A stretch of 64,000 nucleotides of DNA from Streptomyces macrolidinus (lineage in GTDB: Bacteria; Actinomycetota; Actinomycetes; Streptomycetales; Streptomycetaceae): the NCBI RefSeq assembly GCF_023887685.1, contig NZ_JAMWMR010000011.1, forward strand, positions 1 to 64,000. The letters are read 5' to 3'. The number at the start of each line of letters is the position of its first letter. Positions within the stretch are counted from its first letter, which is position 1. Both the position numbers and the translations under genes were made by a program. Positions 37,793 through 45,032 of the stretch are shown here, piece after piece. The notes below the pieces were generated by a model that saw only the letters and a program-made list of their open reading frames with translations, was not told where the DNA came from and made no database searches.

Positions 37793-40063
37793 ATGAACGC
37801 GCCGTACGACGGTGACCGCGGGCAGGGCGCCGCGGGCAGCTCGGGCCACCCCGAGGGTCCGCCGCCGCACGGCTCCGGTCAGGTGCCGTGGCCGCCTCCG
37901 GCAGACGCGTATGTCCGGGACGCCTACGGCCAGGACCCCTACCGGGCGCAGGACCTGTCCGCGCAGGATCCGGTGACCGAGGCGCTCTACGACCACGCCG
38001 CGCCCCCTCCGCCGCCTGCGGGCGCGTACCAGCCGCAGCAGCCGTCGCACGGACAGCCGACGCCGCAGTACGACGCCCACGACCCGCGCGTATGGACCCA
38101 GCCGCCGACGTCTGCCGGTCCCGCGCAGCATCTGCCGTACGGGGAGGCTCCCCGTACGACGCAGTTCGGGGGCGTCAACGGCCTGGCCGCCCAAGCCGGT
38201 GAGGAGAGCCCCGAACCGGACGCCTTCGCTCATCTCTTCCGGGACCAGCAGCAGAGCGGCGGGCAGCCCTACGCCATGCAGCCGCCGACCGCACCCGGCT
38301 CGGGCCCCGCACCGGGGCCTTACCCCGGCCCCGCCTACGCCCCCGCACCCGCGTCGGCCGCGCCGTACACCCCCATGCCTCCCTCAACGGCGGAAGCCGC
38401 ACCGGCAGCCGCGCCCGCGGAGGCGAAGAAGGGCGGGCGGGCCTCGGGCCTGCTGAAGTCCAGCGCGGTGATGGCGGCGGGCACGATGGTCTCCCGCCTC
38501 ACCGGCTTCGTCCGTTCCGCGATGGTCGTCGCCGCACTGGGCATCGGCCTGCTCGGCGACACCTTCCAGGTCGCCTACACGCTGCCGACGATGATCTATG
38601 TCCTGACCGTGGGCGGCGGCCTCAACTCCGTCTTCGTACCCCAGCTCGTGCGAGCCATGAAGGAGGACGAGGACGGCGGCGAGGCGTACGCGAACCGGCT
38701 ACTGACCCTGGTCATGGTCGCGCTGGGTGCCCTCACCGCTCTCGCGATCCTCGCGGCACCGCTGCTGGTCCGTCTGATGTCCCCGTCCGTGGCCGGCGAT
38801 CCGGCGGCCAACGAGGTCGGCGTCACCTTCGTCCGCTACTTCGTCCCTTCGATCTTCTTCATGGGCGTCCATGTGGTGATGGGGCAGATCCTCAACGCGC
38901 GCGGCAGGTTCGGCGCGATGATGTGGACGCCGGTCCTGAACAACATCGTCATCATCGTGACGCTCGGCGCGTTCATCTGGGTGTACGGCACCGCGGCCGA
39001 CTCCGGTATGAAGGTGTCGACCATTCCGGCCGAAGGCCAGCGGCTCCTCGGTGTCGGCATCCTGCTGGGTCTGGTCGTCCAGGCCCTCGCGATGTTCCCC
39101 TACCTGCGCGAGAGCGGATTCCGTCTTCGCCTGCGCTTCGACTGGCGGGGGCACGGGCTCGGAAAGGCCGCGGCCCTCGCCAAGTGGACGCTTCTCTTCG
39201 TCCTCGCCAACCAGGCCGGCCTGATCGTGGTCAGCCAGCTCTCCACCTCGGCCGGCAAGCACTCGCCCGTCGACGGCACCGGCTACGCCGCCTACGCCAA
39301 CGCCCAGTTGATCTGGGGCCTGCCGCAGGCCATCATCACCGTCTCGCTGATGGCCGCCCTGCTGCCGCGGCTCTCCCGCTCGGCCGCCGAGAACGACCAC
39401 GGTGCGATCCGTGACGACGTCTCCCAGGGCCTGCGCACCACGGCGGTCGCCATCGTGCCGGTCGCCTTCGGCTTCCTCTCGCTCGGCATCCCGATGTGCA
39501 CGCTGATGTTCGGCTCCTCGGGCACCAGCGAGGCCACCAACATGGGGTACATGCTGATGGCCTTCGGCCTCGGCCTGATCCCGTACTCCGTGCAGTACGT
39601 CGTCCTGCGCGCCTTCTACGCCTACGAAGACACCCGGACGCCCTTCTACAACACCGTCATCGTGGCCGGGGTCAACGCGGGCGCCTCGGCTCTGTGCTAC
39701 TTCCTGCTCCCGGCCCGCTGGGCCGTGGTCGGCATGGCCGCCGCCTACGGTCTTGCCTATGCCACCGGCGTGGGCGTCGCCTGGAGCCGTCTGCGCAAGC
39801 GGATCGGCGGCGACCTCGACGGCTCCCGCGTCCTGCGGACGTACGCGCGCCTGTGCATCGCCTCGGTGCCGGCCGCGCTGCTGAGCGGCGCGGCCTGCTA
39901 CGGAATCGGGCACACGCTGGGCCAGGGCGTCGGCGGCTCGTTCGCCGCCCTGGTCGGCGGTGGCGTTCTTCTCCTCGGGACCTTCTACGTCGCCGCACGG
40001 AAGATGCGCATCGAGGAACTCAACTCGATGGTCGGCATGGTCCGCGGGCGTCTGGGGCGCTGA
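37793..40063 (+). CDS. murJ: Lipid II flippase MurJ
   Basis: A 756-residue MurJ/MviN. About 215 N-terminal residues are Pro/Gln/Tyr-rich, low complexity and cytoplasmic, then about 14 membrane helices begin at GLLKSSAVMAAGTMVSRLTGFVRSAMV. It moves lipid II across the membrane for peptidoglycan synthesis. In mycobacteria the same protein carries a C-terminal pseudokinase and external domain; here the protein stops after the membrane part and the pseudokinase is the next gene. It starts 45 bp after the DUF6049 stop. Confidence 0.93.
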   Translation: MNAPYDGDRGQGAAGSSGHPEGPPPHGSGQVPWPPPADAYVRDAYGQDPYRAQDLSAQDPVTEALYDHAAPPPPPAGAYQPQQPSHGQPTPQYDAHDPRVWTQPPTSAGPAQHLPYGEAPRTTQFGGVNGLAAQAGEESPEPDAFAHLFRDQQQSGGQPYAMQPPTAPGSGPAPGPYPGPAYAPAPASAAPYTPMPPSTAEAAPAAAPAEAKKGGRASGLLKSSAVMAAGTMVSRLTGFVRSAMVVAALGIGLLGDTFQVAYTLPTMIYVLTVGGGLNSVFVPQLVRAMKEDEDGGEAYANRLLTLVMVALGALTALAILAAPLLVRLMSPSVAGDPAANEVGVTFVRYFVPSIFFMGVHVVMGQILNARGRFGAMMWTPVLNNIVIIVTLGAFIWVYGTAADSGMKVSTIPAEGQRLLGVGILLGLVVQALAMFPYLRESGFRLRLRFDWRGHGLGKAAALAKWTLLFVLANQAGLIVVSQLSTSAGKHSPVDGTGYAAYANAQLIWGLPQAIITVSLMAALLPRLSRSAAENDHGAIRDDVSQGLRTTAVAIVPVAFGFLSLGIPMCTLMFGSSGTSEATNMGYMLMAFGLGLIPYSVQYVVLRAFYAYEDTRTPFYNTVIVAGVNAGASALCYFLLPARWAVVGMAAAYGLAYATGVGVAWSRLRKRIGGDLDGSRVLRTYARLCIASVPAALLSGAACYGIGHTLGQGVGGSFAALVGGGVLLLGTFYVAARKMRIEELNSMVGMVRGRLGR

Positions 40064-40181
40064 GGCGGGGGTAGGCGCACAACCATCGTCCGCCGCTGTG
40101 TGTCGTGCATAGCGACGGACTGTGGGCACAATTGGTTTCTGCGTCGGAGAGCGCGCAACGGATGGGGAGGCAGGAACGACG

Positions 40182-41879
40182 GTGGCGGAACGGAGCACGG
40201 CTGCCGTCGACGTGGCAGACACCAGCGGCGATGAGTCGCTGACCGCCAAGGCGGACCAGTCCACGTCCGACGGGGTGGCCCAGGAACGGGACACGGACGC
40301 CGACGAGGCGCGCGGGAACGGCGGGCCCGAGCGGCCCGGGGAGGCCTCACCACCCGAATTGCACAGCGGCCACAAGCTCGCCAGGCGCTACCGCCTCGAG
40401 GAGTGCGTCACCCGTCTGGACGGATTCAGCAGTTGGCGTGCGGTGGACGAGAAGCTCCGCCGCGCCGTCGGGGTGCACATCCTGCCCGCGAGCCATGCGC
40501 GGGCCCGCTCCGTACTGGCCGCCGCCCGTGCCTCCGCGCTGCTCGGGGACCCCCGCTTCGTGCAGGTCCTGGACGCCGTCGAAGAGGACGACCTCGTCTA
40601 CGTCGTCCACGAGTGGCTGCCCGACGCCACCGAGCTGACCGCGCTGCTCGCTGCCGGTCCCCTGGAGGCCCACGACGCCTACCAGATGGTCACCCAGGTC
40701 TCCCAGGCGATGGCCGCCGCCCACCGCGAGGGCCTCTCCCATCTGCGACTGAACCCGGGTACCGTCCTGCGCGCCTCCACCGGTCAGTGGCGCATCCGCG
40801 GCCTCGCCGTGAACGCCGCGCTGCGCGGCATCAGCTCCGACACCCCGCAGCGCACCGACACGGAAGCCATCGGCGCGCTTCTGTACGCCGCTCTCACCCA
40901 GCGCTGGCCGTACGAGGACGACGCCTACGGCCTGTCCGGGCTCCCCAAGGGCGTGGGCCTGATCGCGCCCGACCAGGTGCGCGCGGGCATCCACCGCGGC
41001 CTGTCCGAGCTGGCCATGCGCGCTCTTGCCAACGACGGTGCCACCGCCTCCCGCCATGAGTCCCCGTGCACCACGCCCGAGGAGCTGGTGAAGGCGATCG
41101 GTGAGATGCCCCGCATCCGCCCGCCGGAGCCCACGTTCACAGCGCCGCCCGAGTACCAGCGCACGACGTACCAGCAGGGCACCTACGGCCGGCCCGCGCC
41201 CCCGCTCGGCGTCACACAGCCGGTACCGACCCCGCCGCCGCCTCTTCAGAGCCGCACCGGCAAGGCCCTCAAGTGGGCCGTCTCGGCGCTGCTCATCGCC
41301 GCGCTGGGCCTCGGTAGCTGGCAGCTCGCGGAAGCGCTCATGGAGCAGGGCAAGAAGTCGGACACGAACCAGACGCAGCCGCAGGACGACGACGGCAAGT
41401 CGGGGGACGAGAAGAAGAAGGTCGCCCCGCTGAAGATCCAGGGCGCGCAGGAGTACGTCGCGAAGGGCGAGGCCCAGCACCCCAACGACGTCGGCAAGAC
41501 CTACGACGGCAACGCCTCGACGTACTGGAAGACCAACACCTTCCTGGACGGTCCGACCCTCGCGCCGTACAAGCCGGGCGTCGGGATCGTCTACGACCTC
41601 GGATCGGCGCAGGAACTGGATTCGGCGACCATCGGACTCCGGTACGGAGGCAATCACACGACGGTCGACCTGTACGCCGCCGAATCACCGACGTCGTCGA
41701 AGAAGATCGGCAGCGTCACGACGAGCGGAACCACCGCCACGGTGAAGCTGACCAAGCCGGTGAAGACTCAGCACGTCCTCGTATGGCTCACCGCCGTGCC
41801 GTACTCCGGCGAGGACCCGAGCGCTTACTCCAAGAGCGGCTACAAGCAGGCCATCACCGAAGTGAAGTTCTTGGGCTGA
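40182..41879 (+). CDS. Pseudokinase with external discoidin-like domain
   Basis: A 565-residue protein: acidic N-terminus, kinase-like domain (about 68-310), one membrane helix (about 363-385) and an external beta domain of about 160 residues like F5/8-type carbohydrate-binding domains. The kinase is dead by sequence: the glycine loop is CVTRLDGFSSW, the VAIK lysine is missing (AVGVHIL), HRD is replaced by SHLRLNPGTVL and DFG by IRGLAVN. It corresponds to the C-terminal half of mycobacterial MviN, where the phosphorylated pseudokinase binds FhaA to restrain peptidoglycan synthesis. GTG 40182 follows GGGGAGG. Confidence 0.85.
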   Translation: MAERSTAAVDVADTSGDESLTAKADQSTSDGVAQERDTDADEARGNGGPERPGEASPPELHSGHKLARRYRLEECVTRLDGFSSWRAVDEKLRRAVGVHILPASHARARSVLAAARASALLGDPRFVQVLDAVEEDDLVYVVHEWLPDATELTALLAAGPLEAHDAYQMVTQVSQAMAAAHREGLSHLRLNPGTVLRASTGQWRIRGLAVNAALRGISSDTPQRTDTEAIGALLYAALTQRWPYEDDAYGLSGLPKGVGLIAPDQVRAGIHRGLSELAMRALANDGATASRHESPCTTPEELVKAIGEMPRIRPPEPTFTAPPEYQRTTYQQGTYGRPAPPLGVTQPVPTPPPPLQSRTGKALKWAVSALLIAALGLGSWQLAEALMEQGKKSDTNQTQPQDDDGKSGDEKKKVAPLKIQGAQEYVAKGEAQHPNDVGKTYDGNASTYWKTNTFLDGPTLAPYKPGVGIVYDLGSAQELDSATIGLRYGGNHTTVDLYAAESPTSSKKIGSVTTSGTTATVKLTKPVKTQHVLVWLTAVPYSGEDPSAYSKSGYKQAITEVKFLG

Positions 41880-41904: not shown

Positions 41905-42618
41905 ATGGCGGACGGCACCGGATACGTCGACGTGAGCGACCCCGATCTGCTCGCCCGCCATGTCGAAGGCGACCCCGACGCCTTCGGTGAGCTCGTGCGC
42001 CGGCATCGCGACCGGCTCTGGGCGGTGGCGCTGCGGACGCTGGGGGACCGCGAGGAAGCCGCCGACGCCGTCCAGGACGCCCTGGTCTCCGCCTACCGGG
42101 CCGCCCACACCTTTCGCGGACGGTCGGCCGTCACCACCTGGCTCCACCGGATCACGGTGAACGCCTGCCTGGACCGCGCCCGCAAGGCGGCATCCAGAAG
42201 GACCTCGCCGGTCGACGACGCGGAACGGCTGGAGCAGCTCATGGAGCCGCACGAGGCGGCGTCCGCACCGGCCGAGCGCAATGATCTGCACCGCGAGTTA
42301 CTCAAAGCCCTGGGCACCCTTCCCCCCGACCAGCGGGCCGCCCTTGTCCTCGTGGACATGCAGGGCTACCCGGTGGCGGAAGCCGCCCGCATCCTCGACG
42401 TTCCGACCGGAACGGTGAAGAGTCGTTGCGCTCGAGGCAGAGCCAGGCTGCTGCCGCTGCTCACGCATCTACGGACAGCGGACGGCGGCGAGGAAGCCGG
42501 GACATCGGACGTCGGGCGGAACCGGGTGCACGGGGCATCCGTCCCACCCCCGGCGGGACCACGTGACGCGGGAGCGAGCGATTCAGCGGCTGCGAAGGGC
42601 GGAGGTGAGCGAGCGTGA
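41905..42618 (+). CDS. sigM: ECF sigma factor SigM, with a TTA codon
   Basis: A 237-residue ECF sigma factor. Region 2 spans about residues 22-92 (DAFGELVRRHRDRLWAVALRTL, DAVQDALVSAYR, TWLHRITVNACLDRAR) and region 4 about 130-185 (LPPDQRAALVLVDMQGYPVAEAARILDVPTGTVKSRCARGRARL). The last 45 residues are a Gly/Ala-rich tail. Leu132 is coded by TTA (42298-42300), the bldA codon. The stop overlaps the start of the putative anti-sigma gene by 4 bp (GTGA). The order murJ-sigM-anti-sigma-trxB-trxA matches mycobacterial sigM, supporting the name. Confidence 0.88.
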   Translation: MADGTGYVDVSDPDLLARHVEGDPDAFGELVRRHRDRLWAVALRTLGDREEAADAVQDALVSAYRAAHTFRGRSAVTTWLHRITVNACLDRARKAASRRTSPVDDAERLEQLMEPHEAASAPAERNDLHRELLKALGTLPPDQRAALVLVDMQGYPVAEAARILDVPTGTVKSRCARGRARLLPLLTHLRTADGGEEAGTSDVGRNRVHGASVPPPAGPRDAGASDSAAAKGGGERA

Positions 42619-43680: not shown

Positions 43681-44652
43681 GTGAGCGACGTTCGTAACGT
43701 GATCATCATCGGCTCCGGGCCCGCCGGCTACACGGCGGCGCTCTACACCGCGCGCGCGTCGCTGAAGCCGCTGGTGTTCGAGGGCGCTGTCACCGCGGGT
43801 GGCGCGCTGATGAACACCACCGAGGTGGAGAACTTCCCCGGCTTCCAGGACGGCATCATGGGCCCCGAGCTCATGGACAACATGCGCGCGCAGGCCGAGC
43901 GCTTCGGTGCCGAGCTGGTTCCGGACGATGTCGTCTCCGTGGACCTCACCGGTGAGATCAAGACCGTCACGGACACCGCCGGTACGGTCCACCAGGCGAA
44001 GGCCGTCATCGTCACCACCGGCTCCCAGCACCGCAAGCTGGGCCTGCCGAACGAGGACGCCCTCTCCGGACGCGGCGTTTCGTGGTGCGCCACGTGCGAC
44101 GGCTTCTTCTTCAAGGACCAGGACATCGCCGTGATCGGCGGTGGCGACACCGCGATGGAGGAAGCGACCTTCCTCTCCCGCTTCGCCAAGTCCGTGACGA
44201 TCGTCCACCGCCGCGACACCCTGCGTGCCTCCAAGGCGATGCAGGAGCGCGCCTTCGCCGACCCGAAGATCAAGTTCATCTGGGACAGCGAGGTCGCGGA
44301 GATCAAGGGTGACCCGAAGCTGGAGGGTCTCACGCTGCGGAACCTGAAGACCGGAGAGCTCAGCGAGCTGCCGGTGACCGGCCTGTTCATCGCCATCGGT
44401 CACGACCCGCGGACCGAACTCTTCAAGGGTCAGCTCAACCTCGACGAGGAGGGCTACCTCAAGGTGGACGCCCCCTCCACGCGTACCAACCTCACTGGCG
44501 TCTTCGCCGCCGGCGACGTGGTGGACCACACCTACCGCCAGGCGATCACCGCTGCCGGTACAGGCTGCTCCGCCGCTCTCGACGCCGAGCGCTTCCTCGC
44601 CGCTCTCGCCGACAGCGACCAGCAGGCCGAGCCCGAGAAGACCACCGTCTGA
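43681..44652 (+). CDS. trxB: Thioredoxin reductase
   Basis: A 323-residue flavoprotein that passes electrons from NADPH to thioredoxin. The FAD site is [18 protein letters not shown], the redox pair is C136-C139 in [11 protein letters not shown], the NADPH site is [15 protein letters not shown], and [16 protein letters not shown] closes the FAD domain. Length is normal. GTG 43681 is 10 bp after AGGAATCAGGCC. It is transcribed with trxA and preceded by a SigR promoter. Confidence 0.96.
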
Positions 44653-44696: not shown

Positions 44697-45032
44697 GTGG
44701 CCGGCACCCTGAAGAACGTGACCGACGACTCCTTCGAGCAGGACGTCCTCAAGAGCGACAAGCCCGTCCTGGTGGACTTCTGGGCCGCCTGGTGCGGCCC
44801 GTGCCGCCAGATCGCCCCGTCCCTCGAGGCCATCGCCGCCGAGTACGGCGACAAGATCGAGGTCGTCAAGCTCAACATCGACGAGAACCCGACCACGGCC
44901 GCCAAGTACGGCGTCATGTCGATCCCGACCCTGAACGTCTACCAGGGTGGCGAGGTCGCCAAGACCATCGTCGGCGCCAAGCCGAAGGCCGCGATCGTCC
45001 GTGACCTCGAGGACTTCATCACCGCCAAGTGA
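44697..45032 (+). CDS. trxA: Thioredoxin
   Basis: A 111-residue thioredoxin with the active site WCGPC (C33, C36) and the cis-proline loop MSIPTLNVYQGG. It reduces protein disulfides in the cytoplasm using electrons from TrxB. GTG 44697 follows TTAAGGAGCC. It is 44 bp after trxB and part of the same SigR-controlled unit; a parS site and a terminator follow. Confidence 0.96.
   Translation: MAGTLKNVTDDSFEQDVLKSDKPVLVDFWAAWCGPCRQIAPSLEAIAAEYGDKIEVVKLNIDENPTTAAKYGVMSIPTLNVYQGGEVAKTIVGAKPKAAIVRDLEDFITAK

Follow-up and report, generated by a model that had tools for sequence, protein, structure and literature searches.

A TTA codon in the sigT-type ECF sigma factor gene of Streptomyces macrolidinus and its occurrence in a single clade

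Sigma factor gene, anti-sigma partner and TTA codon

The window analysed here, a stretch of 64,000 nucleotides from Streptomyces macrolidinus (hereafter the source strain), harbours a block of genes in the order DUF6049 protein, murJ, kinase-like protein, ECF sigma factor, anti-sigma-like protein, trxB and trxA (Table 1). With murJ upstream and the anti-sigma gene followed by trxB-trxA downstream, the sigma factor gene has the surroundings expected of SigM or SigT. The profile matches of murJ, trxB and trxA bear out the murJ-trx neighbourhood named in the original prediction, and its SigM family name is likewise supported, as the open reading frame scores 292.8 bits against the NCBIfam SigM model NF007225 (cut-off 190). 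Since both sigma domains are present, the SigM model is passed and matches with E ≤0.001 are found in all 61 genomes sampled, the most distant of which may give a paralogue, the open reading frame is regarded as a real gene. The kinase-like protein encoded between murJ and sigT is perhaps a pseudokinase partner of MurJ.

Table 1. Features of the sigma factor locus, numbered from the first base of the window
Feature	Position	Strand	Basis
murJ, lipid II flippase	37793..40063	+	TIGR01695, 501.6 bits
Kinase-like protein, perhaps a pseudokinase, between murJ and sigT	40122..41879	+	PF00069 and NCBIfam kinase matches, all below cut-off
ECF sigma factor, 237 aa (sigT/sigM)	41905..42618	+	NCBIfam SigM; S. 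coelicolor SigT (SCO3892) by synteny
Sigma-70 region 2, residues 30-96	41992..42192	+	PF04542 Sigma70_r2, E 5.4e-19
Sigma-70 region 4, residues 130-182, TTA at its start	42292..42450	+	PF08281 Sigma70_r4_2, E 2e-16
TTA codon for Leu132 of sigT/sigM	42298..42300	+	direct reading
GTGA overlap of sigT stop and downstream start	42615..42618	+	surrounding bases GCGAGCGTGACA.CCACGA in all 8 species compared, source strain included
Putative RstA-like anti-sigma factor, 309 aa	42615..43544	+	position, sequence, two below-cut-off NCBIfam anti-sigma matches
trxB, thioredoxin reductase	43681..44652	+	TIGR01292, 402.5 bits
trxA, thioredoxin	44697..45032	+	TIGR01068, 124.2 bits

By passing the SigM model above its cut-off the gene resembles sigM of Mycobacterium tuberculosis, which has trx and murJ as neighbours as well; mycelial development and bldA control are not known to apply in that organism. 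In S. coelicolor the name SigM denotes a SigB-like factor instead (PMC6295645). There SCO3892 is named SigT (PMC4921905, PMC6295645, PMC3902916, PMC2631018) and SCO3890, two gene numbers away, is the thioredoxin reductase (PMC2631018), matching the trxB found behind the anti-sigma gene in the window; the sigma factor gene therefore corresponds to SigT by synteny. Orthology with SCO3892 is thus assigned from synteny and gene numbers, and the gene will be denoted sigT.

The protein encoded downstream of sigT contains an H-x3-C-x2-C motif, which we take to be a mark of anti-sigma factors, and one likely membrane helix, as judged by eye. A Pfam profile search with this protein returned no match and both NCBIfam anti-sigma matches lie below cut-off; position, motif and these two matches together suggest the role of RstA. 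Across all eight species examined, S. violaceoruber included, the GTGA overlap together with its surrounding 24 bases hardly varies, which makes translational coupling of sigT and rstA likely, and likely old. The overlap is thereby common to the source strain and to S. violaceoruber, a close relative of S. coelicolor. For S. coelicolor itself, binding of SigT by RstA has been reported (PMC5537264), as have negative regulation of differentiation by SigT, protection of SigT from degradation by RstA and degradation of SigT by ClpP/SsrA (PMC6295645, PMC5537264, PMC9775585).

The reading of Leu132 of the sigma factor from a TTA, as originally predicted, is exact. Leu132 is residue 3 of the sigma-4 domain, the limits of which are those of the Pfam match. 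The codon is thus in frame within a real gene, as in bldA-regulated TTA genes. Within the 48 open reading frames called in the window TTA accounts for 2 of 1,659 leucine codons (parA and gidB, removed from this count by a script filter, contain no TTA), and at this frequency a gene of 24 leucine codons should contain about 0.03 TTA. Since TTA occurs in 2 of the 48 called frames, meeting one TTA gene per 64 kb is nevertheless ordinary; the S. coelicolor chromosome is reported to hold 147 TTA genes (PMC4255298). The other TTA among the called frames is codon 184 of a LacI-family regulator (1545-2723), whose 94.9% identical counterpart in the related genome G268 has a TTA at the same codon. In S. 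coelicolor TTA codons are mostly located near the 5′ end (PMC2635970), a tendency rather than a strict rule (PMC4255298, PMC2635970) that the sigT codon, number 132 of 237, does not follow.

Distribution and history of codon 132

Codon 132 was read in 248 Streptomyces loci (L001-L117, L172-L242 and L316-L375), none of which was dropped, corresponding to 225 distinct sequences. This sample leans to close relatives, as it comprises the best 80 matches of one search and the best 30 of each of two others, while 60 of the 248 loci were picked from genomes with weaker matches. The genus sample consisted of 392 genomes, in part of which the codon was read; resampling of the genus around another centre gave a listing that appears to differ by one added genome, G416.

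Among the 225 distinct sequences the codon is CTC in 132, CTG in 71, CTA in 8, CTT in 3 and TTG in 3, the remainder being GTG (3), TTA (2) and GTC, GTA and ATC (1 each). The two with TTA are the source strain (L001 and its duplicate L172) and G268 (L174), and the aligned part of all 248 sigT copies contains no further TTA. Outside the genus, where 13 of 24 genomes were read, TTA is found at this position in none. Conservation of a TTA among orthologues, taken as a trait of bldA-regulated TTA genes, is therefore limited here to 2 of 225 distinct Streptomyces genes from one clade, and the conserved bldA-dependent ECF factor that had been envisaged is not borne out. The original prediction had itself named a uniform CTG among relatives as speaking against it; CTC or CTG in 203 of the 225 sequences comes close to this, yet G268 also has TTA. 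S. violaceoruber has CTC where the source strain has TTA. In conserved TTA genes of S. coelicolor the TTA codons themselves are reported to be often not kept (PMC4255298).

The rare leucine codon CTA at position 132 (L206, L217, L342, L344, L363, L367, L372 and L374) is commoner than either TTA or TTG. Two of the 13 sigma factor genes read outside the genus have a TTA elsewhere, at codon 112 (L118) and codon 103 (L127) in the numbering of the source protein.

The main tree, for which codon 132 was masked, was calculated from 12 rows and 5,968 columns and supports a clade of seven genomes (100/100). Within it G268 (TTA) branches first and the source strain (TTA) second, followed by five genomes of which four have CTG and one, G310, has TTG; support for the node of the source strain (94/96) is just under the star threshold. 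Approximately unbiased (AU) tests rejected the source strain and G268 as one clade, that is, as sisters with a TTA by common descent (p 0.0088), the source strain and G310 as one clade (p 0.0089), and a clade of all three T-bearing genomes (p 2.8e-5). Since the source strain and G268 do not form a sister pair, the codon was either gained once, early, and later lost or gained twice. Counted by hand, these two histories require the same number of changes. An earlier, shorter tree (49 rows, 2,730 columns) supports this clade as well; nine of its rows belong to it (CTG 6, TTA 2, TTG 1), among them the CTG-bearing S. glomeratus and Streptomyces sp. Y2F8-2. It resolves the interior differently, giving no firm order inside the clade and joining the source strain to G310 and G264 in one fork. 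At sites of sigT that encode the same amino acid, the source strain and G268 use different codons in 57 of 204 cases.

Decoding of TTA and its retention in G268

The tRNA needed to read TTA, tRNA-Leu with anticodon UAA, is present in the source genome at G000:C2:21047-21129, as typed by ARAGORN. The tRNA search had yielded 69 hits at E 0.001 and 2 weaker ones, of which 18 chosen stretches were typed, giving 16 tRNAs that include one tRNA-Leu(UAA) and one tRNA-Leu(CAA). The latter, a separate reader of TTG at G000:C50:131555, dismisses the idea that the bldA tRNA is obliged to read TTG too, which stemmed from the lack of CAA among the initial eleven long tRNA regions. A partial tRNA-like stretch at G000:C54:118907-118960 (within L376, G000:C54:118700-119150) is not accepted by ARAGORN, and a partial tRNA hit of similar extent exists in G268 (2818533-2818585); both are possibly remnants of integration sites.

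The source genome also encodes an AdpA-like protein of 411 amino acids with a single TTA at codon 225, between its DJ-1 domain (25-192) and its helix-turn-helix domain (243-332). In NCBIfam no model above cut-off names this protein AdpA; the name AdpA-like is used here for the order of its domains, the position of the TTA and a sequence resembling that of AdpA. A tRNA-Leu(UAA) is present in G268 as well, and the AdpA-like gene of that genome has its TTA at the corresponding codon. For adpA in general a TTA between the two domains has been described (PMC4255298), so that adpA, like sigT here, is a regulator gene with one TTA near a domain boundary. The likeness ends with the distribution, as adpA alone is reported to carry a TTA in every streptomycete analysed (PMC4255298), as opposed to the two sigT sequences above.

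In order to compare the retention of TTA with that of other leucine codons, 544 kb of the source genome were set against 599 kb of G268. Of 430 called open reading frames, 267 have a G268 match that reaches 60% identity and covers 60% or more of the frame. At sites with leucine in both genomes, TTA is kept in 7 of 9 cases, TTG in 98 of 299 and CTA in 23 of 44; one further TTA, aligned to TTT, was left outside this count. Retention of TTA exceeds that of TTG and CTA combined (121 of 343; Fisher p 0.013), also at an identity threshold of 75% (5 of 7, p 0.047). The difference from CTA alone has a p of 0.27, and without sigT and the two codons of a doubtful frame of 86 amino acids 4 of 6 TTA codons are kept (p 0.19). 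These figures give a weak hint, not specific to sigT, that TTA codons as a class may be retained beyond neutral drift.

Possible consequences of the codon

In the source strain ribosomes on the sigT mRNA would need the bldA tRNA at codon 132, upon entry into the sigma-4 domain. As long as this tRNA is scarce they may slow or stall at this point, the truncated SigT chain perhaps being cleared by tmRNA, and translation of rstA, coupled to sigT via the GTGA overlap, would fall too. With sigma and anti-sigma factor falling jointly, the effect on free SigT would be blunted, and that on the regulon would probably be modest and mainly confined to early growth. Dependence on the bldA tRNA is argued here by analogy with SCO6638-SCO6637 of S. 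coelicolor, where the first gene likewise has a TTA and its stop overlaps the start of the second (PMC2000904). A bldA mutant has less SCO6638 transcript and lacks the SCO6638 protein, and in it SCO6637 is reduced at both the RNA and the protein level (PMC2000904). Whereas bldA dependence was measured there, it is deduced for sigT-rstA, and SCO6638-SCO6637 is not described as a sigma/anti-sigma pair. Action of tmRNA at UUA-stalled ribosomes has been proposed without direct proof, and developmental predictions of the same paper were not fulfilled (PMC2635970). On this analogy bldA dependence of SigT in the source strain is mechanically plausible.

The explanation considered probable is that the TTA in sigT is a lineage-specific, labile codon which arose most likely by drift from CTG through TTG to TTA, and that it lowers sigma and anti-sigma factor in a coupled manner with modest effect. 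The TTG in the related G310 suggests such drift rather than a selected switch. A sequencing or assembly error hardly deserves consideration: the source genome is a draft in 137 contigs, yet the single-contig genome G268 shows TTA at the aligned position, too, and G310 has its one-step neighbour TTG, and error as the source of the TTA was rejected on the former ground. Rather unlikely, though well ahead of an error, is that the codon has no measurable effect, UUA being decoded adequately whatever the stage, as in the S. clavuligerus regulator of cephamycin/clavulanic acid, and is thus a neutral oddity. Several TTA genes are reported to be expressed in bldA-deficient strains (PMC4932002) and many, albeit not all, TTA genes of S. 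clavuligerus to be independent of bldA (PMC5133688); in addition the TTA was lost or never gained in five of the seven clade members and its codon lies away from the 5′ end favoured in S. coelicolor (PMC2635970). Against an absence of effect stand the tRNA-Leu(UAA) and the TTA-containing AdpA-like gene of the source genome, as well as a proteome study of S. coelicolor in which the sole TTA-gene product detected was absent from the bldA mutant (PMC2000904).

It seems improbable, to a clearly greater degree, that the sigT-rstA pair was captured adaptively, the TTA being kept in the clade because bldA control delays SigT to the developmental phase. This would agree with the TTA common to G268 and the source strain despite their many differing codons in sigT, with the higher retention of TTA relative to TTG and CTA, and with the role in differentiation reported for SigT of S. 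coelicolor (PMC6295645, PMC5537264, PMC9775585). It is opposed by the same five clade members without TTA, by a retention control that is small and loses significance on trimming, and by a review with a Table 2 of frequent TTA genes, the main text of which contains neither '3892' nor 'SigT'. The corresponding strong form of the mechanism, in which one synonymous change in this clade subjected a sigma/anti-sigma pair that otherwise has no TTA to the bldA tRNA and stalling at the boundary between sigma-2 and sigma-4, with tmRNA action, delays SigT and RstA until development, is considered just as doubtful.

The link between an ECF factor and development, drawn in the original prediction, is not new, as SigT of S. 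coelicolor has already been reported to affect differentiation (PMC6295645, PMC9775585, PMC3902916). A literature search, with most subscription papers outside its reach, found no paper on a TTA in sigT; the only one combining SigT, a TTA codon and Streptomyces names SigT solely in the reference list (PMC5133688). The connection to the literature thus shifts from sigM to sigT, whose role in differentiation is already on record.

On the preferred reading of a labile, lineage-specific codon, the TTA looks like a local change of probably minor weight and not like a developmental switch shared by relatives. If the codon is without effect, a TTA in a lone genome would be weak evidence of bldA control unless relatives are checked. 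If it works, related species that differ at this one site of sigT, having TTA, TTG or CTG, would provide a clean natural test of the effect of a single TTA on a sigma factor together with its anti-sigma factor.
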